From Trissonchulus latispiculum (Eukaryota; Nematoda; Enoplea; Enoplida; Ironidae), in NCBI GenBank assembly GCA_030248195.1, contig JASAND010011119.1, positions 1 through 64,000 on the forward strand: a stretch of 64,000 bases of DNA, given 5' to 3'. Shown one piece after another: positions 3,092 to 58,500 of this stretch. The notes under the pieces were generated by a model. It saw only the letters and a program-made list of their open reading frames with translations. It was not told the origin of the DNA and did no database searches. A program made the position numbers and the translations under genes. Within the stretch, counting starts at the first letter, position 1, and each line of letters starts with the position of its first letter.

Positions 3092-3097
3092 TTTATT
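3092..3097 (-). promoter_or_regulatory. Poly(A) signal AATAAA of the DEG/ENaC channel gene
   Basis: On the minus strand GGAAATAAACAG lies about 105 bases after the TGA stop at 3201-3203. The channel gene and the first secreted-protein gene therefore converge within about 0.7 kb. Confidence 0.65.
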
Positions 3098-3200: not shown

Positions 3201-3311
3201 TCAAAGTAATGGAATCTGAGGCACGGAAACACATAATTCAATAATAGCAACAACAGATGCTCCAAGTAAAAAGCCGATTGTTGATCCAATATTGCTTAGT
3301 AATTGGAAAAT
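3201..3311 (-). CDS. Last exon of the DEG/ENaC channel: TM2 and selectivity filter
   Basis: The 36 residues after a TTTCAG acceptor begin IFQLLSNIGSTIGF and continue LLGASVVAIIEL. This is the second membrane segment of DEG/ENaC channels with the conserved Gly-x-Ser filter, here GAS. The frame stops at TGA after a short tail (CVSVPQIPLL), so the cytoplasmic C-terminus is very short. It joins in phase 0 to the 4194-4272 exon, which supplies the pre-TM2 VYVQTLF strand. Confidence 0.88.
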   Translation of the reverse strand: MFQLLSNIGSTIGFLLGASVVAIIELCVSVPQIPLL

Positions 3312-6300
3312 CTGAAATCCAGAAGAGCATTTCCGTGAGTTTTATTGCGTGACAAAAGCAAAAAAAGACAAAAACCAAGCGTGGAATGTTTCAAAAAAAC
3401 TCAGCTGATATAATGTTCATAGCGCATGAGTTAACGTGAGATGAACCAACGAGAGCTGATTTATATATACTGGAACATTACGGTTGCCACATAAAGACCA
3501 ATCCCAGCTAGTGTACATACTACACCAATGTTAGACAGTAGTGTAAATTAATTTATGACACAAGGTTTTACTATATCTTGCTGTGTTTCAAGGAACCTAA
3601 AGGTGGTAAAGCAGAAGATATTATTTAAAACATATTGCAATCCTTTTGCCTTCTTCCTTGCCTTCCTTCCTTCCTTCCGCTGCCATGCTGATTCTGAGGA
3701 ATGACCGGGAGTACACCGCTAACTCAATCGCTGTGCTTCCATCGGTACTAAGCTATACCATAGTACAGTACAACTGGAATACGTCTCACTTGGTGGCTTC
3801 ACTTCACTTTCTTTGGTGCAAAGGCTGTTATTGCCCATCGTTTTTACATAGAAGACATGCGTGTGCGCTGCTCTTCAGGCTAGCCGCCAGACCTAGCAAC
3901 GACGAGGCCCGACGGAGCATGCTTCTTAATAGGCGAAGACATTCAACAGTCATGAAAATATGTGAGACTCTTTCTGCCAAATTGGTTGAACTGCTTTTGA
4001 CTAACCTTATGAGGCCAGTTTTCTGGCTGCTACTTTTCATCTTTGAGTGATAATCATCATTTTGTGATGCTTAATTCAGCACACACAACAATAACAACAA
4101 ATAGTAGTCTCAAAATCACAAAGAAAAGCCCTGTGACGCCTGAATTTGCATTTCAATAAGTGCATGTATGTCATGCTGCAACGATTTACTTACTTCGTAG
4201 TTAGGAGCAGATTCCAAGCTATTTGAAAATAATGTTTGAACATAAACACTGAAAGATGCTACGTCGCCATGTCTGAAAAATAGCAAAACCATTTCAATTC
4301 CTTTTTCACAGAATTCATCCTTTTAGATACCAACACTCCATTGCACTATTGTATACGCATACTAACAAAAAGTTAAAAACATCAACCTGCTTACAATTGG
4401 CTACAGTTTTCCATGCAATCGTTTATCTGAAAAAATGAACAAGTCATAAGAAACCTTTGGAACGACCAGACTTGCTAAGACCGCTAATGGTTGCTGCAAT
4501 TGTTATTGTTAAGCTTATTCTTCGAAATGTCGTTTTTTATAAAATACACACAAACGCAAATGAATTAACTCAAACGCACATCTCTCTCACAAACTCACTC
4601 ACAAACACATAAAATATCAGCCCTTAATGCCAAATAATTACCAGTTTCACTTACTGGAGTGTATTTTAGGATTGACATGGTAACAATATAGTCATGATTC
4701 CTGGGTAAATAAATGAAAATAAGATAATTTAACTATCACTACTTATGCTCTTAACGTCTATCAAAGCAAGTTAGGCTTTCTTGATTATAAATTGTGGCTA
4801 AAGATGTATAACAACGGTTCACGTTAAAAATTACAATTTGGTAAACCATAAAAGGGAGCTAGCTAACTAAGCATATTTGTAAGCTTAAGCGTACTGGCAT
4901 TGTTCCGGACAAGCGAAAGAAGTTACTGACGCTTGAGCAGTTCTCAGGCAGTCCACTAAAATAAATATTTACTCTTATTAGTCTTAAAAGCATGTATTGT
5001 AACCAGTACGCGGCATTGTTAAGCGCTGTTTACACTTGTTTGCTTGGGTGTAAACTCAATTGAAATTAAGTGAAGAGTGCTGATAATTTTCTTATGACCA
5101 AACTCCCAAACCAACAGACAGCCGGAAGGACAAGTAAAAACCGGGCTTAATGGTGAGTAGTTGGATTGTATTGTGTTAGGGCGGCTTCTACGTAAGGGCG
5201 CTCCTATCGTGCGTTTAGTGCGATTTTAGCATTTTCTGAACATGGTTTTTAGGGAGTTCAGCGTGAGCGTTAGGGCGTCCAGTGTATACATTATGAGTTG
5301 GGTATTATTCTAAACAGAGACGCAACCAAGCATGTTTCCTTCGTAGTACATATTATATATATTTCTAATGCAGTCTTGAACAAACATGCGTAAAAGGGGC
5401 AAACACCTCAGTTTTTTCCTCCCTAATGACACCTTTGTAATTGCGCATTATTCATAAAACACTTTATTATTATAAAAACATCCAGGCGCCCTAACGTACT
5501 CTACACAGGCACCCTAGCGTACTACTGGGCACCCTAACGTACACGCTGGGCGCCCTAACGCAGCAGGCGCTCTAACACACAACAAAAATAAAATGACCTA
5601 AGTTCCCGGGCGCCCCAACGCAACGTTACCATTAATTGTGTATAGCTTGAAAACAGTAGTGAAAAACTAAAAAATTTTAGTTGATAACTGGAAATAATAA
5701 ACGCAGCTTGAATGTTTGCAGTGATAGCAAAATTTTCGTGGAAGTGCGGAAGGTGTTGAGCCGTGCTTAAAGTGTAAGTTACTTCAAAGTCCATTTTATC
5801 CAGCGCATTCAGAAAATGTCTGGCACATAAAGTACAGGCTGAATTTTTGAATAGTACGCCAGCAAGCTTTGATATTGTTTTTCGATATAATGCCAAAGAA
5901 TGCATTTCCACTATAAGTACTATTGCTGGTGCTGAGCGCTGCACGTTTAAAACTACAAAGCAGAAGCTAATGGCGCCACGGGCAAGGGCAAAAATGTCTC
6001 GAAAGATGGCGATTTGACTCGAAATATTTCTGGACATTTTTCCATATTTCGTGATATTTTTGCAGTAGCATTTCAAATTTTATTATTTCTTTCAAAGTAT
6101 TTCGAGGCTTATTATCGGAGTTTTAATGTTTGTGGAGTATTTCTCAGAAATAATTATATGGACGAAAAGCACCAAATTATTACGTGAGCTACCTTATAAT
6201 ACCTTCTCTCAGTATATGTATAGTGACAAAGCCTTTTGAAACCAATGCTTTAGCTTAAAGCGTAACCTACGTGATGTCATAACAACGTCAGAAAGAGTCA

Positions 6301-9219
6301 CAAGCCGCTGAGTGTTTATTTCTACCAACGTAATAAACTGAGAAAGGTCACATTGGCGTGTAGATTAACATCTCTATTCAATGTTGGCTCAATTTGATTA
6401 AATTTTATTTTGTTTGATTAAATTGTTGGCATTAGCAAGCTACCGACTCAAGAGCTTCTTACTTTGCTCATCTGTGAAACACAGTGAGCTGTCCGATGCT
6501 ACTTTTTCTGGGATAGGATAAGCAGGATGAAAGCAGTTGCAGAGTTTGTAAATCCGATCTTGTTCTTCTGATTTTTCACATGCCTGCAGAGAACCAATAC
6601 TTCGACAAACATTTTGCCAAATATTTAACTAAGATCCATTCAATACGGGTTTTATCTTTTGAATGCCTCAAGCTTTGAATATACTTTTAATCAGCGAAGT
6701 GATCTATGCTGGGCTACACATTTGTGTAAATTCTATCAATGAACGATGTACTTTACCACTTAAAGTTGACATGGGTAGCACTTACTAACTGGTTTGTGAA
6801 AAAGCCGAGTTTACCCCTAGCTGACAAAATAGGATAAAATCAGTATTACTTTACTTCAGAATATTTGTTGGGGCATTGTTGCTGATGTCAAATGCAATGT
6901 TTGAAGCGACATCAATTTATCATAGCAACATTTGTTTTTCTAAATAACCTTAAACTACACTACTAGTCTAAAATGCCAATCGGAAATAATGATTGATATC
7001 GAATTGTGAAATCATACTAAACTGACCGTTCGAGAATATGATTTGTTGTACAAATAAAACGAAGGCAATATCCCGTTAATGCAATTTTCGTATGGTTCCG
7101 GTTTCAAGACAATATGTCTCTGAAGTATTCACAAACAAACACTTAATCTAATTCAGGAAAATTCATAGTAAGTAGGTTAAGTCAAATTCTAACAAGACAT
7201 CTACATAAATCAAAACAGCAGACATCGCAGCTCAGTAAAGACATAAAACTCCTTCAATCAAATGTGTACACTTCATTCCACTTCACTCATGAAGGAATTG
7301 TCGGCTAAAAATGGTAACAAGCACAGATTAGTTGACATAATTAAAAAACATCTACTGCCGCCAAGTGCATGCATTTTACGAAACACTCACGTATCGAAGA
7401 TGAAAGGTTGTGGAATGTCCAGGCGACACAGAGAAACCTTTCTCAGCTGGGAACAAATCAACTCCTGGACTCTCTATTGATACAACCAATCCGGCGGTCT
7501 CCATAAGAGGGGAATAGTTTTCCATGTTACTGCGTATAACTGCGTGGAGTCCTAAGCAGGGTACACAATTACGAAAACGTTAAAACTGCTGCAAATAAGT
7601 TTTGAAAACGGTAACTACTGGTTCTTAGTTGCTATTTCTTATACGTTTAAAATGTTCTCCCGCATGTCAACCCGGCATTAAAAGTTGTTCCAGTCAGCTA
7701 TATTCTACTATTAAGGTTCATAGTGGTCAGAACAAAAGGTCCTTATCCTAAAAGCTGCCACTTATGCAATTAAACTAGGTTCATAGGCCCATGCATGCGA
7801 AGTACACTTAAAGTAGATTCGATATTTCTACGGATACAATATGCACAGTAATTTCCTTCTTTGTTATTAAACAAACTACAACCAAAAGCAACAGTAAACA
7901 CGCTGATGAATACTAAACGCTGTACAAGTAATAACAATTTCTGTACAGGCATTTTTGTGTCAAGTTTTAATTACACATATTTGTAATTTTGGAAATTAAG
8001 ATAATTTAATGTTATAAATTCAAACGTTTTTATATTATTTATTAAATCGTACCATGGAAAGGGCCAGGCATGTAAGCAAAGGTTTGGGTATTGTTTCCAG
8101 CATTGAAAGTATAGCAGTTCCCATATGAAAAGTCCCAAAACATTGTATTGAACAAACTGAATTTGAAAATAAAATCCCTGATTTATTTTTTGCATCTGTG
8201 TATTTGCACTATTTGTATGCATATATTAGCACTTCCATTACAATGTTTGCAGTTTTTATGTCTGCATTAAATCTGTATTTATGCTGAAGACTTATGGTTA
8301 CGATAGCTGATTGTACTAGTTCTGTTATGTTCTATTTAGTCAGTTAAATTTAGCGTTGAAAAAAGTTTGGTTGGGGCGGCGCTAAATTTATAACAAAAGC
8401 TTGCTTCTAATCATGCTTTAATGCATACATACTATTTCATTAACAGGAATAACATACGTCCGAGCGGTGTAAGTCAATGATGATTATGAAGAAGCCATTA
8501 CTCATAAAATTACTGTACAGATACTGACCAGTTTGTTATGTAAAGCTCAATTTCAAATATCGAAAATATTAAATGTTACTCATACGCTTAAAGAGCTGGA
8601 AAATCATGGAAAACAAATAAAATAAAATTTATCGACCTGCTGCAATTGCCGTCGTTGTCGTATCGGCAATGCGAGAAAATATCTGAAAGACTGTAGCCAA
8701 GATTAATTCGGTCGTCAAGGGGAATGAGGGATGCTTCGAAGAGTAGCTTGTTTACCAGGGAAGCAACGACAGCTCTGTCGGTTTTAATGGCTTCCACCGA
8801 CAAAGGTTGATTAAAGCGTTTTGTTGTCGTGGATTCCCGCTTGGAAACCAGAGCTGGTTTGGTTGAGTGAACGTTAGTTGGAGGTGATATCGAAGACTTT
8901 ATGACAGCTGATGTCGATGACAAAGTTATTGTGGGTTTTGAGGATGTCCGTGAGACGTAGTATGATGCATCAGATGATATTGATAGAGTTTTTTGTAATG
9001 TAGTTATTTTAGTAAATAATGTAGAACTCGTTGACATTGGTGTTGCCACCGAGGCTGCAATGGTTGGTGATCTTGTTAGTGCTTCTGCAGCTGCCATGAT
9101 TGTGGTAGTAGTAGCGGTGGAAGCAGCAGTAGTAGTGGTAACAGTAGTAGTAGCAGCAGCAGCAGTAGTTGTAGCAGTAGCAGTAGCAGCTGTTGTAATA
9201 ATAGTAGTAATCGTCGTCC

Positions 9220-9252
<33 letters not shown>

Positions 9253-10130
9253 CGGTGGTGGTGGTGGTGGTGGTGGTGGTGGTGATGGTGGCGGTGGTGG
9301 TGGTAGTAGTAGTAGTAGTTGTAGAAGGAGTAGTAGTAATAGTAGTAGCAATAGACGTACTAGTAGGAATAGTAGTAGTTTTTGTGGTAGTTGTTGATGT
9401 AGATGAAGCTATAATGAATTGATGCTACTTTCGTTTACACAGTCTATGCCACCTGTTTAAGCAGTAGAATTGCACTCACTGCTTCATTCCTTAAATTGTA
9501 TGCGTTCGTAGTACCGAGTGCGCTAAACGTCCAAGTTATTTGCAAGCAACTATTTGAAGTGAATTAGTGAATGAGATGCTTTTCTGATTAGGTGACTTTT
9601 TGACTTTTTCCTCGAAGCAGACACATTTAAGTCTAACAGAGTCGTTGTGCTTTCGAGCAAAGATACAAAAACATGTACTGGGTACGTAGTTGTGTGGGTC
9701 ACTGTTTGCATATTCGTGAGGAGGCGTTCGCCGTTAGCCTGCAGCACGTACCTGTAGCTGATAAGAGAGAGCTTGTTAGCGGTCACACTCTTATCTATTG
9801 TGTGCGTTTGGTAATATTAATGCTGATATGTATAATTACACATACTTTGAGCACATGGATCAAAGAATGCTATCAGACAAACAATGGTTGCAGCATAGGT
9901 ACAAGGCAAGTCATTAATTTTTCCGGTTCCGGGAATAATCGATGCGCAATCTTCGTTATTCTGATTGTTGGGCTCGCCTCCAGACCAAACTAGGTACCTG
10001 GCGTCACAAGTTGTATCATCTGTAGTCACCACAAAGTGTCCTATAATACCCACATTGAAAGAGACTGTTGTCATGTTCTCGGTCTTTACGGAAACATAGA
10101 AGGGCAGACATCGGCATATTATTATTGTTA

Positions 10131-10176
<46 letters not shown>

Positions 10177-10191
10177 CATTATTACTATTAA

Positions 10192-10238
<47 letters not shown>

Positions 10239-13193
10239 CTCAAAGGAACAAAACAAATTTGTGGAGGTATAGAGGTAACTCTGATTCGGTAACAGTCTTG
10301 CATAGTGTGGTCTAAGAATTCTGTAGAATCGGTGACAGCTGTTATTCGCTTTATTGAAAGATCTATTCCAACTCTAACCATAAGAATCAAAATCAACCAA
10401 GGCAATTAGCACACAGTTAAATGTATAGTTAAAACGAGGTTAAGCATAGACAGAGATTTGAATTTAGAAGGCTAAGGCTTACCTTCTTCCAAAACGTCGT
10501 CCGCCATATGCCATATATATGGTCCAGGTAGTTGTCTCCTAGAGCAACCGTTTTGAGGGTTACAAATAAACTTTCGTTGAGGTTTTAGAGTAGGCGTACT
10601 GTTATAAAGCACAAAAAATAAACATTGAAGGATTTACTTAGGTTATCGCAAATTGGATTGGCAGTTCTGAGTATCTCAAGTACATCGGAGTTTAGGCTAA
10701 ATCTGCTTTATCTGGTAGTGAAACCAAGTAAAGAAAAAAGAAAGTTGCACACCACCAGGCGCCGAAAAAATCGGGCACCCGGTGAGACTCGAATCCACAG
10801 TCTCCTGCTTAACGCGCAGACGCTCTAACCAACTGAGCCACGGGAGCTTCAGTGGAATGAGCTTAAACCGGAATTAAGTTCTTTCATGTTATGTTAACCA
10901 ACAGCGCTGGATAAGTTAATAGCTACCTCTATAAAAGGTTAGGTAACTGATTATTTTAATTAAGTACAAAACTGAGAATAAAATTTCATTTACACAAAGG
11001 CGGATATTTGCTCAAGATGACTACGGTCTTCAAACACAAGTAGGGTTGCATCCTGGTTTTCCTGTCGGCACGACTGTGTAGCATTTTCGTAGTCTCCGGC
11101 AAATGGCAGCGCTTTCACACAGCTGTTCTGAAGCTGAGTCCAGTTTGCCGGGCATGCTTAAGCATAGAACAAATTAAACAATAGATTTTGTATCAATCTT
11201 TACGTACATGCTGGTGTCTGTTTGCGTACTGTCAATTTTTTTAGTTCATGAAACGTCTTTCTTGAGAGAGGATTCTTTCGGCCTTCGAGGAAACTTTTCC
11301 AGACGGAATTGCTTAAATTTAGTGCAGTCTCTTCGTTCGACTGCAGTCAACTGTCCGATTAATGAAATGTGTTAACATTTCACAGGATGTGGTTTTGAAT
11401 ATCTATTTTCCAAACGTTTAGCTGAACCAGTTGTCAAATTTTTTCTATTCAATTTCATTGTAATAGAACGCTGTTAATGTTAACATGAACTGTTCATTTA
11501 TAATCGTTACAGTTGGGTGCATTCATACTAATATTTTTAAATTCTTTTTATCATTTGAGGAATGCATACCAACTGTTTCCTTTTTTCTCCTGAGCTTAGG
11601 CTTCGGACTGCCAGGAAGATCGGAGTTTCTAGTTGTCAAACTGCTTAGAGATTTATCGCTGTTCAAGTTGTCATACGTACTTATCTGGAAAAAAGCAACA
11701 GAAAATCGGAAAAAATCAAAGTGCTGACACACTATATAACCATATAATTTATATATATACTATCCAATATTAAATCTCTAGTTTGAGATGTAGACCTTTA
11801 TTGGAACAAAATATTACACATCCCAATTGTAATTGCAATTGACCCCAAATTAAGCTTAACTCGAAAAAACGCTATTTTAAAATAAACATAAAAGTGGAAA
11901 ATGCCATGCCGTATTACGATTGGGTACTCCGCACGAGTAAGTTTTGTAAAATCGCAAAAATTATCGATTATTCAACCCCCATTCCAGAAAACATGAAAAA
12001 CTAAAGCTATCAAATCATACAATATTAACGCAAATATTTCAATGCTTGGGAACTTTGGTACCCACTATGTTAAACAATGCTGGATATTGTTTGATTGCTT
12101 CGGCTCTGTAAGGATTTATGTTGCAAACTGCGACCGCTGGGAAAGGTATCGGTTCATATCCTCTTAGCTAAAATAAATCATTATTTTAATTAATTCAATT
12201 AACTTAATTAACCTAATGAACTGATTACCATTAAGCAAAATGAAATGATTTTATAAGCTGCTTTAGAGCAAATTATAACCTTTCCTTAGAAAATAATTTC
12301 TTCTCGAAATGATAAGTGCTTTGTTCTTATAGTGGATGCATTGTCTTTAAAAGCGAATGAAAGTCTTTTAAACACTGGTTTGCCAAAATAGTCTCAATAT
12401 AAAAATATATTGCTTTATTATTGTGACTTTTCTTAACTTTAGCTTGTCAGCTCTTTCTATGTATGAAAATCAGCATACGTAATAATAAGAGTACATAATA
12501 TTGGAGTATGACACTGCGTATGCTCTCTGTTATCGGAGCAAAAACTATGCTCAGCTCGCTAACTAATAACCCCTCCCGCAAACAGTGAAAGAAAATAGTG
12601 AATATTAGTGGGACCCTAGTGAGCCCTATGTATACTCAAATTATGTAGTACTTGGTCGAATGGAAGGTATGTTCGCTCGCTCTATGTTTACGTGCTTAAG
12701 CTCAAAAATTCAAGCAGCGTGGGAGCATAATATTTATACCTGCTACGAGGTTCAGTTCGCAGTTCGCTAGTATAGGGAGCTAATTTCATTGAAGAGAAAG
12801 GTCCAAATTGCAATGCGGGTCAGCCGTTAGCGAACAGAGCACAAATTTCTCCCTGCTAACAGAAAGCATGCCTTGTAGCATTCCCTTAATCTTGGTATAT
12901 AGTAAAATGTAGTCATTATCTGTTTTGACAGCATCAACTGCGACAAGATTTGTAAGTTTTGTGTTATTTACCTTATACTGGACATGAACATCGTACTGAA
13001 GATATTGTCTGGTCAGTAGAGAGACTTGTACAACACAGTAGCCGAAGCAAACGCAGAATACAGTGTACCAAAAGCAGGCGCCGCATCGGCTGTAACTGGC
13101 GACTGCACACCTAATTCCGTGAATTGAAAAGTGTCGCATTCCATACGAGTTCACCGGAATACCGGTATATTGTCGAATTCTCGAATCTAGAAG
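3201..13193 (-). CDS. DEG/ENaC-family ion channel with embedded C-type lectin domain and Thr-rich tract
   Basis: Minus-strand exons, 5' to 3': 12972-13193, 12066-12167, 11208-11340, 10994-11156, 10280-10373, 9846-10083, 8637-9408, 8053-8156, 7391-7551, 7027-7119, 6463-6583, 4895-4955, 4655-4700, 4395-4426, 4194-4272, 3201-3311. All junctions are GT-AG and every phase matches, giving 844 codons with the stop. Family signatures appear in order: FSIHGI before TM1 (CFWYTVFCVCFGYCVVQVS), Y-x2-Y, FPAVAVCN (12066 exon), SHCRYDNDGNC, GNCYTFN (8053), KPEPYENC (7027), CNCFHPAYPIP (6463), ACPEQC (4895), YIVTMS (4655), FSVYVQTLF (4194) and the TM2 motif GFLLGASVVAIIEL (3201). Known members are trimeric plasma-membrane cation channels. 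Here about 400 extra residues sit between FPAVAVCN and SHCRYD: a C-type-lectin domain and a Ser/Thr-rich tract. The start codon is uncertain: exon 1 has an in-frame ATG at 13137-13139, but an upstream exon is possible. Exons 10280 and 9846 are least certain. Confidence 0.82.
5170..5640. repeat. Repeat with GGCGCCCTAACG arrays in a channel intron
   Basis: The left part carries GTTAGGGCGG and GTAAGGGCGC, and the right part several inverted GGCGCCCTAACGTAC-type units spaced about 17-30 bp. The core GGCGCC is self-complementary, as in other elements here. It looks like a small transposable element with repetitive inverted ends, but no target duplication was found. It lies in the intron between the 4895-4955 and 6463-6583 exons. 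Confidence 0.5.
8637..9408 (-). CDS. Thr/Ser-rich tract plus SHCRYDNDGNC segment of the DEG/ENaC channel
   Basis: This exon runs from a CATTATAG acceptor to a CAG/GTCGAT donor (772 nt, phases 1 to 2). In the only frame compatible with both neighbours, the first ~110 codons are almost all Thr, Ala, Ile and Ser, written by (ACT)n and (ACC)n runs. A less regular Ser/Thr-rich stretch of ~100 residues follows, then VEAIKTDRAVV and SLSDIFSHCRYDNDGNC, the conserved approach to GNCYTFN. The plus-strand poly-Val and minus-strand poly-Leu frames here are shadows. A Thr-rich extracellular run suggests a stiff O-glycosylated linker between the lectin domain and the channel body (inference). Confidence 0.7.
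9846..11156 (-). CDS. C-type lectin-like domain exons inside the DEG/ENaC channel
   Basis: Exon 10994-11156 starts CPANWTQLQNSCVKAL and contains ATQSCRQE and FEDRSHLEQI, the first half of a C-type lectin domain. Exon 9846-10083 gives the second half: LVWSGGEPNNQNNEDCASI, then KINDLPCTYAATIVC. It has the EPN calcium/sugar-specificity tripeptide (mannose-type in known lectins), the ED-C motif, and IND in place of WND. Exon 10280-10373 (VGIDLSIKRI...) lies between and fits both phases but is weaker; the acceptor of 9846-10083 (CGTAAAG) is also weak. Phases link the domain upstream to FPAVAVCN and downstream to the Thr-rich exon, so it is read here as part of the channel. Confidence 0.7.
10117..10237. 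repeat. (ATT)n microsatellite
   Basis: About 120 bp of nearly pure ATT repeat with a few C or G interruptions. It lies in the short intron between the 10280-10373 and 9846-10083 lectin exons. It produces the poly-Ile, poly-Leu and poly-Asn frames here, which are not coding. Confidence 0.95.
10775..10847 (-). tRNA. tRNA-Asn(GTT)-like gene or tRNA pseudogene
   Basis: A 73-nt cloverleaf can be drawn on the minus strand. The acceptor stem is GCTCCCG/CGGGTGC with one mismatch. The D stem is GCTC/GAGC. The anticodon stem is TCTGC/GCAGG with loop GCGTTAA (anticodon GTT), and the T loop is TTCGAGT. A and B boxes are recognisable and a run of six T follows at 10765-10770, like a Pol III terminator. 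Against a working gene are C instead of U at position 33 and one mismatch in the T stem. It lies in the intron between the 10994-11156 and 10280-10373 exons. Confidence 0.45.
12480..12860. repeat. Diverged copy of the AAGAGTAC foldback MITE family
   Basis: TAAGAGTACATAATATTGGAG, CAAAAACTATGCTCAG and the inner CCCTCCCGCAAA part match the left arm of the element at 36339-36715. A partner near 12815-12845 reads CAGCCGTTAGCGAACAGAGC. The arms are unequal and damaged. The element lies in intron 1 of the channel gene. Confidence 0.6.
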
Positions 13194-13675
13194 CTAAACT
13201 AAGCAGAACGGATCCGCAATTGCATTGCAAGTCAGAATGATCTCGAGGTCGGTTCCGACCAGAGAAATTTTGAAATTTTAAATTTATAAATATTATCTTC
13301 CTGCTTCAATAATTCGCACAGTGGACTAGAAAAATCGCCACAGAATTGTCCGCAGATAGATTTGCATAGAATTTGTGCATTTGACTGATTTTCTCGAAAT
13401 GTCGTGTTACTGTGCATTTGGCCGATTGACTGCTAAGTCAAATCCAAAAAAGGTTCCTCGGCCCATATCCCCTATATATTATGGCACAAAAAGAACTTTT
13501 GGCCCACACTAGTTTTGAGAAATCGATGTTCAAAAATTTTTTATCTATATTTACATAGCCGTTTTGTCAGAAAATTGTTTTTTTGCGAAAACTTGTGAAA
13601 ATTTTTGCTAACTTGGCTAGTCTCGTAAACTCATGTTGATGTCATGATTATAAGCTTTATAACTTTATAAAACTA

Positions 13676-15184
13676 TATATGTCACGTCCTAAACCCGAAA
13701 TCGCACAAAACTAGTTTTGTGAGGCTCAAACCTCACAAAACCCGTTCTGTGAGGCCTTGTCTCACAAAACTAGTTCTGCGAGGTTCATGCCTCACAAAAC
13801 CCGTTCTGTGATGCCATTTCCTCACAAAACCCGAAATGATGCAAACTCAATATTATATTGATATTTATGCTATATTAAACGATTTAAATGTTTATTGATG
13901 TCTTATAATACCATGACTTGCTGATTTTCAATGAAACTTTTCAACAACAGATTTCCATCAATTCAAATTCTTAGAAGAATGTTTTTACTGGTTCCAAAAT
14001 TGCAAATTACTGCTCTAGTTATTTAATTTACTGAAATATTACGTTTTCGATATATCAAGGAAAGTACCAATTGAATTTATACATAAATAAAATATATAAA
14101 TAAAATTTAATTTAAATTTTTATATAAATTTTGACTGAATGTCAAGTAAATGTACATTACAAGTAAGGTCAAATGATATTTGTTTAAATTAATTGGGGGG
14201 GCTATGAATTTCACTAAAAGTTCGATGTTGGAAAAGCTAGCTAGTCTTTTGCCACATAATAGTTTTACGTTTAGTGTAAATTTTCCAGAAATAGTTCTGA
14301 CATATATTGCTCTGATATCGTGTAAAATAATATCTAAACCATTGTATTCTTTTCTGTGCGATCTGATCAAAGTGCGAAAAATTGCGTGTTGTAGGTCTAT
14401 ACGGGTGGAGGTTAACTAACGTCTAATGATCTGTGGTTTACCAAATGAACCCAACTTTGCTCCAATTAATACACCAAGTATCTGTCTTAACTTATGTAAA
14501 AATGACGTGATTTCGTTAATCCCTGCGTTCGCAGTGCTAGATTACATTATCGAGATTGTCTCTGTTATTTGGTGCCATTTCGAAGATGTGAGCCCATTAC
14601 TCCAAATTACAGTGGCAGAATCGGCTGAAACTATGCGCATTACAGGCCAGTGAGTATACTCCAATGTTTAGAAATGCTAGATTGATTTCTCGAAGTATGG
14701 ATGACTATAGCTCCAAAAAGCTCTAAGACAGTTTTAAGCGCATACTGAACGAAGGAAGCGTGATATCGAAAAACGGATTTCATATTCCGATTCAGCAGGT
14801 CAAATAACCCCTATAACCACCTTTCCAGCAAAATCGGAGACAAAAAATTTTTTGACCCGATTTTCACTTTTTATTGATGGAAATTTGTTGTTGAAAAGTT
14901 TCATTGAAAATCCGGAAGTCATGGAATTATAAGACATCAATAAACTTTTAAATCTTTTAAAATAGCAATATAATGTTGAATTTGCAATCATTTCGGGTTT
15001 TGTGAGGAAATTGACCTCACAGAACTAGTTTTGTGAGAAATGGCATCACAGAACGGGTTTTGTGAGGCATGAACCTCACAGAACTAGTTTTGTGAGACAA
15101 GACCTCACAGAACGGGTTTTGTGAGGTTTGAGCCTCACAAAACGAATTTTGTGCGATTTCGGATTTGGGACGTGACATATATAT
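13676..15184. mobile_element. 1.5-kb TIR element with arrays of CTCACAAAACTAGTTTTGTGAG-type palindromes
   Basis: The outer ends are inverted copies (ATATATGTCACGTCC) and the inversion continues inward for about 300 bp on each side. Next to each end are four ~24-bp self-complementary units. They alternate an ACTAGT centre with an ACCCGT centre between CTCACAAA-type flanks. The inner 0.9 kb has no recognisable transposase. The TATA-rich flanks suggest a TA target but do not prove it. Confidence 0.75.
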
Positions 15185-18986: not shown

Positions 18987-21677
18987 ATGAAGCTTACACT
19001 TGTGTTCATTTCATTGGCAGTGCTAGCTGTCGGAGTAAGTTGAAATGGTATTACTTTCGGAGTGATTTTGAAAGTCGAGTTCGAGTTCTACTATTCAAGG
19101 GGGTCCGAATTTTTCAAAATTTCGGTGGCACATAACTAGGGTTGTGCCGTTAAGAAATTTCTCGGGCCGGGCTCGGGCTCGGGCCAACCAACCTCCTCGG
19201 GCCGGGGGTCGGGCCGGGCGGGGCCCGGCCCGAAGCCCGAGGCCCGCTTCACGGCCCGAGCGGCCCGAGGAGCCCGAGCGGCCCAAATACAGCCCGACCG
19301 CTGCAGAGAGGCCCAAAATGGCTCAAACAGCATCCAGTTTGCCGAGTATATAGTTTTATTAGTATTACGCATCGGTAAACCCAAAATGAACTTTCATGGT
19401 TCGATTAGCTGTAACTTCAAGTGCAGCATTAGCTATTGTTTGAAGCTTTTCATTTAATAATTTTCAGATAATGCTTTGAGCACTAATTTGTAACCACACA
19501 CGAGAGCTATAAAGCTTATGTATTTTATAGATTGTAAAGTTTTTGGTTATTGAATCATCCAAAAAGGATAAAGATAAATCACTCACACAGCTTAAACTTA
19601 GCAGATTTAAACACACAATTGACCACTGACTAAAACGTGGGAAGTTGGCGAAGCTTTACTTGTTAGCTTCCTTGTACCAAACCAGGGTTTGTCTGCCGCC
19701 GTAGCAGAGTAACTAAAATAGTTCCTTCTGAATGTTTGTGTCTGTATACAGTTTGCTTCAAATGTATCGACAACAGTGTGTGAACAAAGGAAGCCACAAG
19801 TCACAACGAAAAAATCAATATTTTTCACCAATGACAAACTACTCAAATAGCCCGGAAAGCCCGAGAGGCCCGAGCGGCCCGAGTGGCCCGAGCGGCCCGA
19901 ATGGCCCGAGCGGCCCGAACGGCCCGCCCGAGTGGCCTGAACGGCCCGAGTCGGGCCGGGCTCAACTGAGAACTCGGGCCGGGCTCGGGCCGGGCCGTCT
20001 CATTAAAAACTCGGGCCGGGCCGGTTTCGGGCCGGCCCGAGCCCGAAGCCCGCTTCACGGCCCTGGCACAACCGTACACATAACTCTCCTTATTCTTATT
20101 CGTGATCAACGTTCGGCGTCTCGACTGACAACTGAGAGAAAAAGACTAAAAATCGAAAATTTCTTATTTGCTCATCCAAAAATTCGAGACCTATCCGACT
20201 TTCAAAGAGCACCAAAATAGCACTGATGCTTCAGGCACTGTAACAGGTTCAGGTTGTACTGGTTTCAGTTTTAGTCACTCAAACTGCAACTTAAAGTGAA
20301 TCTTATTTGGCAGGGGAGGTGTAGCGCTTCTACCAGGGCTAGTGGACCAAGAGGAAGCAAAGGACAAGCCCAAACGGTGGCGTCAGGCACCCTTGTACCC
20401 ACGAAACCAGGACCTAGAAGAGAGAAGGAAAGAGGGAGGTTCAGCTTTTCACTCACCATTGAAAGTAAAGAATTGGCTCAGCCGGGTTTCGAACCACGGC
20501 CCTTCTAAAGCCGGAGCAGACATGCTAACCAACTACACACCGCCATCAGCTGAACTCCCTTGTCAGGCTTATCAATCTTTCCTATGCCTGCTCCCCTTAC
20601 AGAGGAGTCCTTAAACTGACACTGGAACTGAAACTAAAACTAGACAGGACAGAGACCTAGGGGCAGTTGCATAAAAACTCTGCTAGCGTTGCTAGTGTGA
20701 GATACAAGTATGAGTGTTTCATAAAATGTTTTGAGAAATCGAAAAATTAGCTAAGATACTGCTGCTACTCGCAGCACTAGCATTGCTAGTGCGAGCAACA
20801 AGTCTGCTTAAATTTTATAAATTTTTGAAAGATTTTTTAAAATGTTTGAAATCTCTTTATTTTGAGCATTCAGAAAATATTGACATTGTCAAACGTAACT
20901 TGAATAATAAACTCTCCACAAAAGTTACTCATTTGGTCCAGTTTAAGTTTGCTACACTATAGTTTAGTCTTGCCTGAGAACTTGAAGATTTGAAGGTTTT
21001 AAGCAGCCTTTGGTTAATATTCCGCAACAGGAGCACAAATAAACTAAAACTGAAACTGAAACTAAACTAGGTTGCTGAAACAACACTACAGCATAGTACG
21101 TTTGAAAGGTTTCGAATGTGCCTAAAACTAAATGTAGCTGTCCGGTTGAATAAGTGTACACAGTGGATGGTGGTGGAATCACCAAGACACTGCCAATTTT
21201 GACCATATGCAACATCACCGTATCGGGTACTTTTGCATACCGTGTTCATTTCAGAGCTACGCCAGCAGCGAGGCCAGTGGCGGAAACAGCGGAAGCGGCG
21301 AGCAACGTGGACCACCGCCAGGTGGTGACGGCGGTCAACAGGGTCCTCCAGATGGCCAGGGTGGCTCAGGAGGACCCCCCGAAGGTGGACCGCAGGGTCA
21401 AGGTCAGGGTCGAGGACAAGGAACAGGAAATCAGGGTCAAGGAAATCAAGGTCAAGGAAATCAGGGTCAAGGAAATCAAGGTCAAGGAAATCAGGGTCAA
21501 GGAAATCAAGGTCAAGGAAATCAGGGTCAAGGAAATCAAGGTCAAGGAAATCAAGGTCAAGGAAATCAGGGTCAAGGAAATCAAGGTCAAGGAAATCAAG
21601 GTCAAGGAAATCAGGGTCAAGGAAATCAGCAAGGAGGTGGTGGTGGTAGACGTGGTCAGGGTCAGGGTCAACAGTAA
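18987..21677 (+). CDS. Secreted Gly/Gln/Asn-rich repeat protein, paralog 2 (two exons)
   Basis: Exon 1 is 18987-19034 (signal peptide MKLTLVFISLAVLAVG) before a GTAAGT donor. Exon 2 is 21255-21677 after TTTCAG, phase 0, giving 156 residues. The mature chain starts SYASSEASGGNSGSGEQ, then a Gly/Pro-rich part (GPPPGGDGG, GGPPEGGPQ), then 13 perfect or near-perfect GNQGQ pentapeptides plus a partial one, and a GGGGGRRGQGQGQQ tail. There is no Cys and no known domain. An ATG-started frame from 21207 covers exon 2 but wrongly reads the intron end. Paralog 3 has the same ends without the pentapeptide array, so the array expanded after duplication. A secreted structural or adhesive role is inference. 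Confidence 0.87.
19137..20076. mobile_element. hAT-like element with GGCCCGAGC arrays
   Basis: The ends are TAGGGTTGTGCC and its complement GGCACAACCGTA, flanked by a perfect 8-bp duplication CACATAAC (19129-19136 and 20077-20084). GC-rich arrays of GGGCTC/GGCCCGAG units fill both sub-terminal zones around an AT-rich core. It lies in the intron of secreted paralog 2. The Pro/Gly/Arg/Ala-rich frames across it are repeat artefacts. Confidence 0.87.
20320..20604 (-). mobile_element. tRNA-derived SINE, copy C
   Basis: This is the inverted copy of the same SINE. Read on the minus strand it has the leader GTAAGGGGAGCAGGCATAGG, a tRNA-like head with B box GGTTCGAAACCC, the AATTCTTTACTTTCAATG body, and the end AGAAGCGCTAC. 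It lies in the intron of secreted paralog 2. Confidence 0.85.
21426..21629 (+). repeat. 15-bp coding minisatellite (GNQGQ codons)
   Basis: Thirteen head-to-tail copies of GGAAATCARGGTCAA, with a partial fourteenth. The only frequent variant is the synonymous CAA/CAG. Near-identity at silent sites indicates recent or ongoing expansion, and the 15-bp period preserves the frame of secreted paralog 2. Confidence 0.95.
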
Positions 21678-21806: not shown

Positions 21807-23001
21807 GTTTATGCTCTAATCTCAACACCAGCTATAAGCTTGATGTGTTTAGGACATTGTATGCTTAGACAATAGCTTATTATACAAACGATAGTGAATG
21901 TCCCAATATTCAATAATATGACTAAATATATCGATTGAGATAGCAGACTGGACAGTTACACTACGTCGACGTTATAATAATTGTTATTCTTAATAATTCC
22001 CCAGGTAATTGCCCCGTGGCAGCACGGGCGCCAAAAACATGAGTCACATGGACTACAGTCAGGCGTGACTGAAAATACAATATCTTTTTCACGGGTGTTT
22101 TTCACTCTCACGACTTCAATCCTTTACGATGTAGGATATTGTGTGTACCTCATAAAATAAACTGTTATCGGACTTAGTAAATGATTGCAGCTAAGAGCTC
22201 GGTGTATGATCCCTTAGAGGCCTTAGAGAAGGTGGAGAGAGAGAGTTTAGAGGATAATGGGGAGAGTAAAACCTAATGTCTGCCTAGACGACCGTTCAAG
22301 TTGACCTATTAGAAAAGGAAAAACCACCCCCACGACTTTACTTTTCGAATCACAAGTATCAACTTTTAGACAAAACCCAATACGACAACTTACAAAATTA
22401 CGAGAGACGTAACACGACAAGAAAAATAATAACAAAAAGCACACGATGAGAGCCACCATTCGAATCCCCAAATATTCTACCCAACTCGGAACCCCCAACC
22501 AGACGAACCCGAAGACAAGCTATACACTGACAAAATTCAAGTATGCACTTCCGTTTATACTTATGAAGCTAACACCGTAGCTAGTCCAAAAGAAATAAGA
22601 TTTATCGTTTCAGATAGGGTAATTTCAAAATCATTTGTTATTGAGTAATTCCACATCCTAAACGCACTACTGTGCTTCAAATAGGAAGATAGTGACAACT
22701 TATATTTCACTGCTGCGGTCTTGCACAGCTAACAATCAATTGTTCAGTGAGTAATATTCCACAACGAAACAAGCTGAACCTGACGGAATAATTAATTTCA
22801 ACAATCTGTGACCAGCATCGTATTCTTTACTGGTTCTGTTATGTTATTTCTGCGCGTTGAGCAGGAGACCGCGGGATCGATTTTTTCCGATGCTTGGTGG
22901 TGTGCAACTTTCATTCATTCTTTAATTTAGTTGGAAAGATAAGAAAGTTCTTGTTTTCTACCTTATTCTGTCGGTAAGCAGTAGAGACACTGAATTGATT
23001 G

Positions 23002-33171: not shown

Positions 33172-36149
33172 ATGAAGCTTACTCTCTTGTTCGTTTTCTT
33201 GGCTGTGCTAGCTGTCGGCGTAAGTTAAAAGTTTGTTACCTACTTGGGAACTTGAATGTTGAATGGGAACTTGAATGAACTTGAAGCAGAAAACCGCAGT
33301 GGGTCTTGTCTCGCCCCCCTCCTCCTCACTCAAAATTTTTAAAACTTGACCAAATGACCTAAAATTTTGTATGGGTATGTTTTCGACCACGCAGAGTTTA
33401 AATATTGCAAAGTTTTTCAAATTCGCGGTTAGATAGACAGACAGTACACAACACAACTCAACATCTGACCCTCAACGATTTTTGGGTCAATAGGACTATG
33501 TAATTTTGTATGGGGCATATTGGAGGCAGATGAATTAAAAAATTTTAAAGTTTTAAAGTTTAAGTTTGTCAAGGGGGACCGAGAGAAACCCAAAAATGTT
33601 TTGTCTTCGATTTGCTTTTAAAGTTGCACATAAGGGTTTTCGGGGTCGCTGACCTGACCATCTTAGGTGGTGATTCCTTTTGGAGACATCAACTTTGAAC
33701 CGTTGTTACTCATTCATTCCTAGGAGTTAAAAAGCCATATATATTTATATCGAAATGAAGCTTAATATTTTCTCTTTCTAACGAATACAGTGAACATAAC
33801 TTTAGTTCTTGGAAATTATTTTACTGCATTTTCGAAGTAATTTGATTTTCCAGATTTTTTGCAGACTAAAGCAAATTTTAAGCAAGAGGCGTCGGCCATA
33901 TCATTCGATTCTACTATCAAATAGCTGGGGACCCATTTTTAATTATCATGAAACCGCTCTTCGTTATAAAGAAATTAACTAAAATGTATGCGCAACCTGG
34001 ATTTTGCCTACTTTTCCCAACTTTGGCAAGCGACCACTTTGACTCGAAAGCAGCAAACGGGACAACTAAAAAAGGGTCCTTGGGTATTTTTGTGTAAAAC
34101 ACGTGGAGTAGGTGGCAACCCTCTATCTTGCATAGTAAATGCTCCACAATCGCTGGAAAAAATTTGGTCATGTTTTTGCAAAAACTACATTTTTATGACA
34201 GCAGCGTAAGGGATAGCATTTAGAAGATTACAATGCCATGAATAATCGGCCCGACGAGACCTTCAAATTAACACCCTTAGTTTAATTTTACGGCTTGCGT
34301 AGCTCAAGATATGGTGGATTATTTGATTTCTGCAAAAATGACGTTTTCAAAGCCAAAATAAGAAAATCTATATCTCACTATAGACAAAATCTAGAAAGGT
34401 GCTTCACAAAGCAAAAATATAGAGCTCAGCAAGATCTTTCGAATGAATACAATCATAGCTATGCAGGTACTGTCTAATTGTTAAAAATCCGCAAAAACTG
34501 CCCTGAACGGAGACGTCGAAGTTTTGAAGCGGGATTGCGCGGAGGGTGTTAGAATGCTAAAAGAAGTTATTTTGGAAAGTTTCATCAAATTTCATCTTGA
34601 TTTGTACCGTCAACCAATAATATGTGCCCAAAAGGAATCACCACCTTAAGCTGACAACTTTAGCTTATACTGAACTAACGAAAAGCTGAATAGAAAAGGG
34701 ATTTCAGATTGGAGTTAAGCGACCCCAAAAACCACTGTGTGCAACTTTTTAGCAAAATCGCACTCAAAAAATTTTTGGGTTTCCCATGGTCCCTCCTTGC
34801 GAATCGAAAAAATGAACTTCGCGAAGTTTGCGATATTTCAACTCAGCGTGGTCGAAAACATATCCATAATAACAAATTTTAGCTCATTTGGGCAAGTTTT
34901 AAAAATTTTGAGTGGTGGGAGACCAAACGAGACAAGACCATACGTGTGCTTGGGGGGGGGGTTTGGGGGGGGGGGGGTTCACCCCCCCCCAGACCTGAGC
35001 TCACCCCCCCCCCAGAGGGGTCCCTCACCCCCCCCCCAGAATCCAGATTTTTCCGGTAAAAAACCGGAAAATCCGGTTTTTCGCCTTCACCCCCCCCCCC
35101 CCCAAAATTTCCCCTCCTGCACATGTCTGGACAAGACCCACGCGGGTTCGAGCCCGGACAACCGAAACGAAATACCGGACAACCGAAGCGAAATACCGGA
35201 CAACCGACGCGAAATACCGGGCAACCGAAACGAAATACCGGACAACCGAAACTAAATACCGGACAACCGAAACGAAATACCGGACAACCGAAACGAAATA
35301 CCGGACAACCGAAACGAAATACCGGACAACCGAAGCGAAATACCGGACAACTGAAACGAAATACCGGACAACCGAAGCGAAATACCGGACAACCGAATAC
35401 CGGACAACCGAAACGAAATACCGGACAACCGAAACGAAATACCGGACAACCGAAACGAAATACCGGACAACCGAAACGAAATACCGGACAACCGAAGCGA
35501 AATACCGGACAACCGAAACGAAGTACCGGACAACCGAAACGAAATACCGGACACCCGAAACGAAATACCGGACGGGCGGTCCACACGAAGGCATTTCGTT
35601 AACGGCATCACATGGACATGAGTACTAGTGTTGTCGATAGCTTTCATTTGAGGCCCATATATTGGGCCCATATATTGACAAAATGTATTGAAATTTCTTT
35701 AGCTTTATAGTCCCAGCTCAGCATTTGAATCTCCTCCTGGCTCCGTCACTCACTTTTCCCCACATTTTCAGGCATCGATGCTAAAACCGTTTCCTCCTAG
35801 CTCTCTCTCTCTCTCCTCTCTAGCTGTTGAGACGTTCGTCACTTTCAATTTTGACCATTTGCAGCATCACCGTATCGAGTACTTTTGCATATCACAAATT
35901 ATAGGAACAAGTTAGGTTACGTACCATTACTTTTCCTTTTTCCGAATTTATTCTATTTTTCAGAGCTACGCTAGCAGTGAAGGCAGTGAAGGAAGCAGCG
36001 GAAGTGGAGAACAAGGAGGCCCCCCACCACCAGGGGGTGATGCCGGTTCCCAGGGTCCACCTCCGGAGGGTGGGCCTCAGGGTCAGGATCAAGGTCAGGG
36101 ACAGGGAAATCGGCAAGGAGGTGGTGCCGGGGGACGGGGTCAACAGTAG
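33172..36149 (+). CDS. Secreted Gly/Gln-rich protein, paralog 3 (two exons, short form)
   Basis: Exon 1 is 33172-33219 (MKLTLLFVFLAVLAVG) before a GTAAGT donor. Exon 2 is 35964-36149 after TTTTTCAG, phase 0, ending in TAG, for 77 residues. The mature chain runs SYASSEGSEGSSGSGEQGG, then a Pro/Gly part (PPPPGGDAG, GPPPEGGPQG) and a Gly/Gln tail. It matches paralog 2 end to end but lacks the GNQGQ array. The 2.74-kb intron is packed with nested repeats, including a 21-bp minisatellite whose open frame is not part of the protein. The product is secreted; its function is unknown. Confidence 0.83.
33301..35138. mobile_element. Foldback element carrying nested insertions
   Basis: The left arm (from GGGTCTTGTC at 33301) and the right arm (to GACAAGACCC) belong to the AAGCTTA-centred foldback family. 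Within the arms lies a ~980-bp element with GGTGGTGATTCC/GGAATCACCACC ends (33666-34648). A G/C-run element (34940-35129) is flanked by a 9-bp duplication GACAAGACC (34931-34939 and 35130-35138). All lie in the paralog 3 intron. Confidence 0.7.
35154..35573. repeat. 21-bp minisatellite (CCGGACAACCGAAACGAAATA)n
   Basis: About 20 tandem units with few variants and one 12-bp partial unit near 35395. As 21 is a multiple of three, open frames run through it on both strands (for example PKRNTGQ repeats). It is intronic and has no start, signal peptide or homologous exon, so I do not call it coding. Confidence 0.93.
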
Positions 36150-55500: not shown

Positions 55501-58500
55501 ATAACGTTTCAGCAGAATTAAAGAACCACAAAACAAAACAAAGATTAACGTGGTCTATACAACATTATATTAATAAAATTAAGCCAGTAAAATTGTAGAC
55601 TGTTGTGGTATAGAAATAAGAAGTGCAAGAGCAGTGTGTGCGCCATATTACACATATAAGTGCATTATTTTCATATACGGACCGGAAAGTTGTTTAAACT
55701 ACAGGATGTTCGTGTGCTGATAAGCTGTATTCTAAGGTTGACTTTAGGTAAAAAAATGGGGGGGGCAACTCCCCTAGGCGACGAAGGGTAAAAGTGGGAA
55801 GAGGGGTCTAAGATTGCCAAAAATTCATTTCATTTAATTTTCGCATTTAGTTTTTCTTCTATTCCATTTTTAAACGTTTGCTTCGCTTTTAAGCGTGAGG
55901 ATTCAGTCTCAAGACAAAAACCTGTATCCATTTCCAGCCCACACAGTGAGTACAACGTAAATACTTGCCCCAACTTTCACACAAAACATTTTCAACTGCG
56001 ACGACAGACAAACTCAGACTACACAGCTATAGCTAATCAATCATATATACGTATATTCGTAGAATAACATAATAGAATAACATAAAAACATATTCCCTAC
56101 GGAAATTCTTCAAAGCCAATTTTCGAAAAATAAAAGACCGCCAGGTACATAGCTATAGCTAATTATATATACTACAGTACAGCTCATTTCAAAGTGCGTT
56201 TGAGGCGAAGTCCCAAATCTGGCGAAATGTGGCGAAATTGGCGACATTTCGCTTAAAAATTCGCGAAATCTTCCAAAATCTTAGAGAAATGTCGCCAAAA
56301 ATTAACGACATTTCGCGAAAAATGTCGCGTAATTTGCTTTTGCGACATCGCTTCAAACTCACTTTGAAATGAGCTGTACTGTAGTAGAATAAACACTTCC
56401 TACGTAAATTCGCCAAAGCCAATTTTCAAAAAATAAAAGACCGCCAGGAAAAAATCCCCCCCCCCCCCCAAAAATCGACATCACACAACACTCTCCACCC
56501 AGGGAAAAACCCCCAAACCCCCCACCCCAAAAAACCATCCCCCCCCAAAAACCCCACAAAAACCATCGACATCACAACACTCTCCACCTACATTCATCTC
56601 TGGCACATCCACTGGTTTCATCTTGGGAAAGGACATGGGCGGCTCGTTGCTGCGAAACATCAGATCCCTGTTCCAGATCACGGCATACTCGTCCCCGTCT
56701 AGGTCCGAGCCCGCCATCTCATCCGTATGGGGCCGAGGGCCGTGACGGGGGAAAACGATCACGTCCACCAGGTGGTGTAGGCTGGGAATTTTGGCGCCGA
56801 CGGCGATAAATAGGCGCACATCGCCGGGCGAAATGCACGGATTTTTGGTCACCATTACTGGGCCTGAGAGAAAGGCAGAAGAAAGGCAAAAATGCTGACA
56901 AAGAAGTACTTAAAGCAAAACAGGATCTTGCAGTAGAAAAAACCCAAAATACTAGTGGCGGCTAAAAACAAGAGTCAACTGCTAATAATGAGAATGTGGA
57001 TTAAAATTGCAAACCGACAATTTTACCAACATATATACACACACAGTTTCACATTTTCTCAGAAGTAAAGTTAAGTTTTGGTTTTATGATTCTGGATTTA
57101 TCCTACAGGAAGGGGAGGGTGGTCCATGCGTTGGGGGACCCTCCCCCCCGGGACTACCCCCTCCAGAAATTTATCACCTGGCAACAACCAGAGATCACAC
57201 CCTATGAGTTGATGATGTAGGAACCTGTCCTCTGACTATACTTAGGAAAGTCCTCCAGTTACTTATGTAGAAATCCTTAAAACAACCAAAAATCTTTAAA
57301 ATCTACAAAAAACCAAGTAACACAACTTATGCACCTACCGGACAAAATTTTCGTCTCCACATGCGGTTTCTTCAGGTCAGTGGAGTACTGCACAAAAACC
57401 TGCCCATACTGCAGTGTCCCCGTTTCATCCAAAACCCCGTACATCGTTCTACCCTCATCAGGGGGGATTTCAATCCGAGCCTTGACCAGATACATCAACG
57501 CTTGGCGATGTACGGCCAGCAGGAGACCGCGAAAAAATGGCTCAGAACTGAACTGGAAACAGCGTTGCTGCATGGAGCGAAAGTCTATGGTTAGGGGGGT
57601 GCGGTCTTTCAGTGCTGTAGCACTGTCCCGTTCCGACATCAGCATATCGGCCATGCTGAACAGTTGGCGTTCCAGTAGGCCGTGAATGGTGCTGCGAATA
57701 CGCAGATGCGTCTGCTTGCAGTGGCGCTCAGAGACCTGATCCAGAATCATGACTAGGGGCCGGTTCAGGGTTACGGGACCTGGAAAAACAGGAAATACAA
57801 AAAATGAAAACAAAAAAGAAAAATGTGAGGGTTACGGGGCCTGGAAAAAGGAAAAGAAAAAAAGAAATGAAAATAAATAGAAAATGGTGGAAAAAATGTG
57901 GAAAGAATCTGAGTAGATGTAAATAGATTTGAAAACTTAACCAGCCGACTAGGGGGAAAGAGGAACACTGTGCTATGAATTTGTTGAGAACACAAGGGGG
58001 AGTATAATATTTTAAACTTGAAAAATCTAAGAACAATAGGGTATGTGATTTAGAAAAACTCATGGTTCTTCAAAGATTAAAGCTTGTATTTTTGTCATCT
58101 CGATATGCACGCAGACGTTAGGCCACCCATCAAAACATATGTAGATTTCAGCAGCTCTACAGCTGCACGAGGAAGCTCATAATGCTAACAAAGTAGTTGT
58201 GTTTCCATGCCTAGAAATTGAGTACTGAGCCTTAAATTGTGGCTATTTTTAGGCCAAGATTTATGGGTGGGGGGGGGCTTCATGGGGGGTGTCAAAGTTG
58301 CCCCCCCATGGCTCACCAAGAATGGGGAGGGGCATATTTTTGCATGCGAAAAATTTCGTCAATAACCCGACGAAGCCGGAAAATTTTAACGCCTGCCAGC
58401 TGTCACACTCACAAATGTTTTATCTATCGCGCAACTACTCTCAGTAAAAGCAGTATCTAAATCTACAGCGTATATATATACATAATTAAATATTATGTTA

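Follow-up and report, generated by a model that had tools for sequence, protein, structure and literature searches.

Subunits of the DEG/ENaC channel family are recognized by an HG motif ahead of the first membrane segment, an FPAVxxCN motif after that segment, and a GAS-type filter in the second membrane segment. ENaC alpha, beta and gamma have in addition an extra domain, GRIP, located between alpha1 and alpha2 of the finger (passages of PMC6197857). Here we describe a gene that belongs by its sequence to the same family, in a 64,000-nucleotide stretch of the nematode Trissonchulus latispiculum (assembly GCA_030248195.1, contig JASAND010011119.1, positions 1 to 64,000 of the forward strand), referred to as the window. 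The spliced sequence supports an architecture in which a mannose-type C-type lectin domain and a Thr/Ser-rich stalk are lodged in the finger of a DEG/ENaC channel. Whereas GRIP is a protease-sensitive beta insert, the insert here would consist of a C-type lectin domain and a stalk of 195 residues.

For MEC-4 and UNC-105 of C. elegans, the link to the matrix runs through separate proteins and is not known to involve a channel-borne lectin. Both are DEG/ENaC channels that depend on extracellular matrix proteins, according to the relevant passages of PMC10148893. The shear response of ENaC needs both N-glycans and an intact matrix, and it has been proposed that N-glycans act as the tethers, with lectins partnering them (passages of PMC7958617).

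Polycystin-1 (PKD1) is of the TRP type, with several other extracellular domains and a pore unrelated to that of DEG/ENaC channels. Members of its family have 11 membrane segments (PMC9672506), and polycystin-1 brings to its channel complex an extracellular C-type lectin domain that is required for activation of PC-1/PC-2 (passages of PMC7728438). The sequence-only reading, made from the DNA without database searches, knew of no described example of such a channel. Polycystin-1, as presented in those passages of PMC7728438, takes that statement away for channels generally and offers a prior example of a channel acted on by a lectin domain; for DEG/ENaC channels it stands in the open-access literature searched, where none with a lectin domain is described among the matches listed. 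Three papers of family-wide scope, PMC10507113, PMC9822975 and PMC10148893, nowhere use the word 'lectin' in their main texts, and passages of PMC10396339 mention lectin and degenerin apart. Within the literature searched, both parts are of known kinds, and their union and its location are new.

Gene structure and channel core

The gene occupies positions 13139 to 3201 of the minus strand, and it almost certainly encodes a DEG/ENaC subunit. The refined model has 17 exons and 835 residues counted from an ATG at 13139, with all joins in phase and GT-AG boundaries throughout. In-phase splicing of minus-strand exons had been proposed in the sequence-only reading and is borne out, whereas its counts of sixteen exons and 843 residues are replaced. 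An earlier 16-exon version of 828 residues is likewise superseded by this model.

On the 828-residue chain the Pfam ASC profile matches at 6.8e-65 in two stretches covering most of the chain, the best being 494-819. In comparisons with ENaC subunits, the channel half matches ENaC beta (6.8e-21) and the first membrane segment matches ENaC alpha (6.6e-9). In the 835-residue protein a 19-residue hydrophobicity window exceeds 1.6 only when it starts at 19-25 or 803-817, in keeping with the two membrane segments predicted earlier, here placed around one large extracellular region. The HG motif is found at residue 7, the FPAVxxCN-type motif at 65 and the GAS-type filter at 816, and the motifs FPAVAVCN, SHCRYDNDGNC, YGNCYTFN and GAS are all present in the spliced protein. 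Classical cysteine motifs had been noted from the DNA; of the 14 positions of the conserved DEG/ENaC cysteine framework, 12 are occupied, and one disulfide pair is absent. In the channel-half alignment the two absent cysteines fall at RSC and ETC of ENaC beta, and we take them to be partners of one disulfide, with pairing as in chicken ASIC1. Eight N-glycosylation motifs are present in the 835 residues. Judged by these features, neither the pore nor most of the channel core looks unusual, and the protein should therefore form a trimeric cation channel, either homomeric or with other subunits.

Exon 1 (12972..13139) carries the HG motif and the first membrane segment; its start codon is provisional, and because this first in-frame ATG lies only six residues ahead of the HG motif, an extra upstream exon is possible at the N-terminus. 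FPAVAVCN and finger alpha1 are in exon 2 (12066..12167), which was aligned to ENaC alpha, and are followed by a linker encoded by exon 3 (11574..11684) and exon 4 (11208..11340). The junction between these two is ambiguous, with 11574/11340 and its alternative 11570/11330 differing by two residues; exon 4 ends in phase 1. Exons 5 to 7 encode the lectin domain and exon 8 the stalk, as set out below. The YGNCYTFN motif is in exon 9 (8053..8156), and the extracellular region of the channel continues through exon 10 (7391..7551) and exon 11 (7027..7119), the Cys-rich thumb exons 12 (6463..6583) and 13 (4895..4955), and exons 14 (4655..4700) and 15 (4395..4426). Exon 16 (4194..4272) is extracellular and lies ahead of the second membrane segment, which is encoded together with the GAS motif and the stop codon by exon 17 (3201..3311). 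A candidate polyadenylation signal is located on the same strand at 3092..3097, about 100 bases past the stop codon.

Two repeated elements were noted in and near the gene. A tRNA-Asn-like element on the minus strand (10773..10847) lies in the intron that separates exons 5 and 6; about 35 bases of its flank are found again, inverted and 89% alike, at 22878-22912, so the element may be a tRNA-derived mobile repeat. Upstream of the gene, a 59-base tandem repeat of the CACAAAACCAGTTCTGTGAGG type is present at 13704-13831 and 14994-15153; the two sites match each other best when one is inverted, at 96% over 127 bases.

Lectin domain, stalk and insertion site

A domain search of the spliced protein, which the sequence-only reading had suggested as a check, recovers ASC and Lectin_C (4.4e-7) in one 828-residue chain, both above their cut-offs; because two Pfam families exceed their cut-offs in one chain, the combination is beyond chance. 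In the spliced model both domains share one reading frame, and as had been read from the DNA, a lectin domain with an EPN motif and a Thr/Ser-rich stretch, now 195 residues long, lie between FPAVAVCN and SHCRYDNDGNC. Lectin and channel very probably belong to a single protein.

The lectin domain is encoded by exon 5 (10994..11156, or ending at 10996), with CPANW and the first core cysteine; exon 6 (10483..10538), with the middle of the domain (YIWHMADDVLEEG); and exon 7 (9846..10040, with alternative starts at 10019, 10064 and 10083), with EPN, NED, ND and the last three core cysteines. Exon 6 had not been named in the sequence-only reading, which ended one lectin exon at 10994 and began the next at 10083; these two ends cannot be joined directly in phase, and the domain itself stands, reading best when 10483-10538 is included and the next exon starts at 10040. 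Between a fixed start at 11156 and a fixed end at 9846 there are 28 two-exon and 4176 three-exon in-phase chains. Seven splice versions of the region were scored against Lectin_C, whose curated cut-off is 22.6 bits, and all seven exceed it. The best, with exon 6 picked among the seven variants by lectin profile score, reaches 40.9 bits (3.9e-10), a score favoured by that choice. A two-exon model (10996-11156 to 9846-10083) is in phase and passes the cut-off, but at 37.0 bits. The short exon 6 combined with an exon 7 starting at 10064 gives 34.4 bits, and a longer exon 6 (10483-10598) gives 30.7, 36.4 or 33.1 bits with exon 7 starting at 10064, 10019 or 10040, respectively, and for these scores the longer form is not preferred. 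Chains running through an AAT repeat (read as poly-Ile) were set aside by judgement, not by test, despite good splice scores.

Among PDB sequences, the best version matches conglutinin at 3.0e-7 (3.1e-6 for the two-exon version), DC-SIGN-type lectins at 3.4e-7 to 9e-6, and the mannose receptor at 9.7e-14 (1.5e-9 for the two-exon version), the value of 9.7e-14 being a sum over three domains of which the best single one gives 0.0011. These lectin domains share the core cysteines with the channel's, and the aligned conglutinin and DC-SIGNR also have EPN in common with it; to our knowledge they occur on receptors or secreted proteins and not within an ion channel. Long-form C-type lectins have four core cysteines plus an N-terminal pair, and all six are found here (Cys 173, 184, 201, 276, 291 and 299). 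Calcium site 2 of C-type lectins is formed by EPN, a following acidic residue and WND; the corresponding residues are EPN at 267, NED at 273 and the ND of 'WND' at 287, with I in place of W. Because most residues of the calcium site (EPN, NED and ND) are kept, the domain is predicted to bind mannose-type sugars in a calcium-dependent manner. The second half of the domain scores 24.7 bits against Lectin_C when taken alone, and the first half alone reaches 26.0 bits for UL45, another C-type lectin-like family, under its cut-off of 27.

The stalk begins at the start of exon 8 (8637..9408), is 45% Thr and 14% Ser, and is probably O-glycosylated. It shares this exon with undisputed channel sequence, finger alpha2/alpha3 and SHCRYDNDGNC, into which it runs unbroken. 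In 8637-9090, where the exon is not repetitive, the required frame is open and the five others are closed; it was open in only 9 of 5000 Markov simulations. For the lectin exons the corresponding counts were 44 of 5000 for 9846-10083 and 386 of 5000 for 10996-11156, the latter weak when taken alone. By alignment to ENaC alpha and beta, the lectin and stalk together start after finger alpha1 and end before alpha2/alpha3. GRIP likewise sits between alpha1 and alpha2 (passages of PMC6197857), and the position of the insert therefore matches that of the GRIP domain.

The lectin block formed by exons 5 to 7 is entered and left in phase 1. A phase 1-1 block is the usual sign of a shuffled extracellular module, and being self-contained it could also be a separate lectin gene nested inside the channel gene, an arrangement of which examples exist and which the sequence-only reading had itself considered. 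The block is, however, on the same strand as the channel, and the intron ahead of it is just 51 bases. Neither AATAAA nor ATTAAA occurs on the minus strand in 9409-9846, and a scan of 11157-14500 for signal-peptide exons gave just two candidates, whose donors look poor by eye and one of which lies within exon 1. Exon 8, moreover, is in phase with both of its neighbours. Because of the short intron, the absence of a polyadenylation signal before the stalk exon, and the in-phase joins, a separate lectin gene is unlikely, and we would be very surprised to find one.

The same phases permit the lectin exons to be an alternative cassette, with a main transcript joining exon 4 to exon 8 and the lectin carried by some transcripts only. 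Since exon 4 ends and exon 8 starts in phase 1, skipping exons 5-7 preserves the frame, and the strong donor of exon 4 (7.0) faces a moderate acceptor at exon 5 (3.2). Nothing indicates that skipping occurs, however, and the acceptor of exon 8 is the same whether or not the lectin exons are skipped; we regard a cassette as possible but rather doubtful.

A number of observations weigh against the lectin-bearing channel proposed here. Exon 6 combines a strong donor (9.7) with a weak acceptor (-1.1, against 4.5 for its longer form), the acceptor of exon 8 is also weak (-1.5), and splice scores alone do not select the best lectin model, as other in-phase chains outscore it. Splicing exon 5 directly to 9997 gives 26.5 bits, with the match limited to the last third of the domain, and Lectin_C does not match the first half on its own. 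To these are added the composite nature of the mannose receptor value, the replacement of W by I in WND, and the lack of WIGL, a core motif often varied among C-type lectins, in place of which the best model has YIWHMA and the two-exon model VGIIG. No relative with the same channel-lectin fusion was seen in the protein collections or the prokaryote and viral contigs searched; the collections probably hold few animal genes, which gives this result little weight either way. One of the seven conserved disulfides is absent, both partners together, and about the first third of exon 8 is a triplet microsatellite (9105-9379), so the Thr tract is partly microsatellite.

The last two points are what would be expected of a decaying copy, with the fusion present in the DNA and no working channel, if the presumed cysteine pairing is right. 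All 17 exons are nevertheless open and in phase, the two cysteines are absent as a pair, and GAS is kept along with the remaining 12 cysteines; we give decay very little credence.

Possible roles of the lectin domain

The best overall explanation, which we hold with about equal belief and doubt, is a one-protein channel whose lectin is a glycan tether affecting gating. One DEG/ENaC subunit would hold in its finger, between alpha1 and alpha2, a long-form C-type lectin and a probably O-glycosylated Thr/Ser stalk. By binding glycans of the extracellular matrix, the cuticle or a neighbouring cell, the lectin would anchor the channel, and pulling or binding would shift the finger and thereby change gating. 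The channel may thus sense glycans or be tethered to them, as was proposed from the DNA. Granted lectin and channel in one protein, a tethering or gating role, proposed by analogy with described systems, has about even chances; the single transcript, sugar binding, tethering and gating are all properties that we infer. In work on FaNaC channels, the stretch from alpha1 to alpha3 is divergent and belongs to the trimer's outer corner, where sites for matrix tethers have been proposed (passages of PMC11026163). If the tether reading is true, the channel senses or holds sugars directly through its own lectin, and a channel with a lectin at the outer finger corner would be a simple test case for how matrix tethers act on DEG/ENaC channels and for whether responses to force or glycans depend on the lectin.

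A more specific form of this reading, which we put forward tentatively, is that the channel is directly gated or mechanically loaded by a built-in lectin on a mucin-like stalk, calcium-dependent sugar binding at the stalk tip pulling the finger. It would be a one-protein sensor of glycans or touch, which arose when exon shuffling placed a phase 1-1 lectin module where GRIP sits in ENaC.

The lectin might instead turn to the protein of which it is part, folding onto the glycans or the stalk of the channel and acting as a built-in agonist or brake, much as in polycystin-1, for which an action of the lectin domain on glycans of the partner's TOP domain has been proposed (passages of PMC7728438). 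The eight N-glycosylation motifs and the 195-residue stalk would offer targets within the protein. The long stalk equally permits binding at a distance, however, and the case is one of analogy; we consider folding back rather unlikely, and a tether to the outside would be favoured over it.

A further alternative is that the insert acts like GRIP itself, with protease cuts at flanking basic sites freeing lectin and stalk and so altering gating. The site equals the GRIP position (as located in passages of PMC6197857), and basic residues flank the insert on either side (RRKK at 122-125, KR at 499 and 506). Basic pairs are common, however; no RXXR furin-type motif occurs in all 835 residues, and no ENaC alignment, and so no GRIP similarity, was seen in residues 89-302, the part compared. 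Release by proteolysis therefore appears improbable, and we retain the glycan tether as the preferred reading.

Relatives and surroundings of the gene

A search of protein collections gave one match among 2050 candidates, a DEG/ENaC protein of 630 residues from a public assembly (P0001). It has 25% identity to the channel described here and a Thr/Ser/Lys-rich insert after FPAVTVCNLNPF; its precomputed Pfam assignment is PF00858 only, with no lectin domain listed. A further protein search for relatives gave none among 1580 candidates, and a search with residues 1-300 gave three lectin-only proteins among 1288 candidates (P0002-P0004), which were set aside as bacterial by eye. With one 54-residue exon as query, prokaryote genome contigs gave 230 pattern matches, and with a 334-residue query, viral contigs gave seven; none of either set was confirmed. 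Within the window, a tblastn search for a second channel or lectin copy, taken to E 1, matched the gene's own exons plus one stretch of 14 residues (E 0.99) that lies within exon 9 in another frame. A second channel suspected near 21150, where one frame contains LPILTICNI, was not borne out on inspection by eye.

On the minus strand at 56481-63666 are pieces of a gene for a cellular RNA-dependent RNA polymerase, of a kind kept by few animal lineages. They match PF05183 at 56481-56909 (1.2e-31) and 57277-57831 (3.8e-20), and the match at 62647-63666 narrowly misses the cut-off of 23.8 bits with its 23.2 bits.

Two plus-strand frames, at 60-2330 and 21150-21677, contain FQSYASSE followed by long Gln/Gly-rich repeats of the NQGQG type, and are perhaps secreted structural proteins; an exon near 60 whose start resembles a signal peptide may precede the first of them. 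A repeat array at 34999-35628 is composed of NTGQPKR-like units and is open in several frames.

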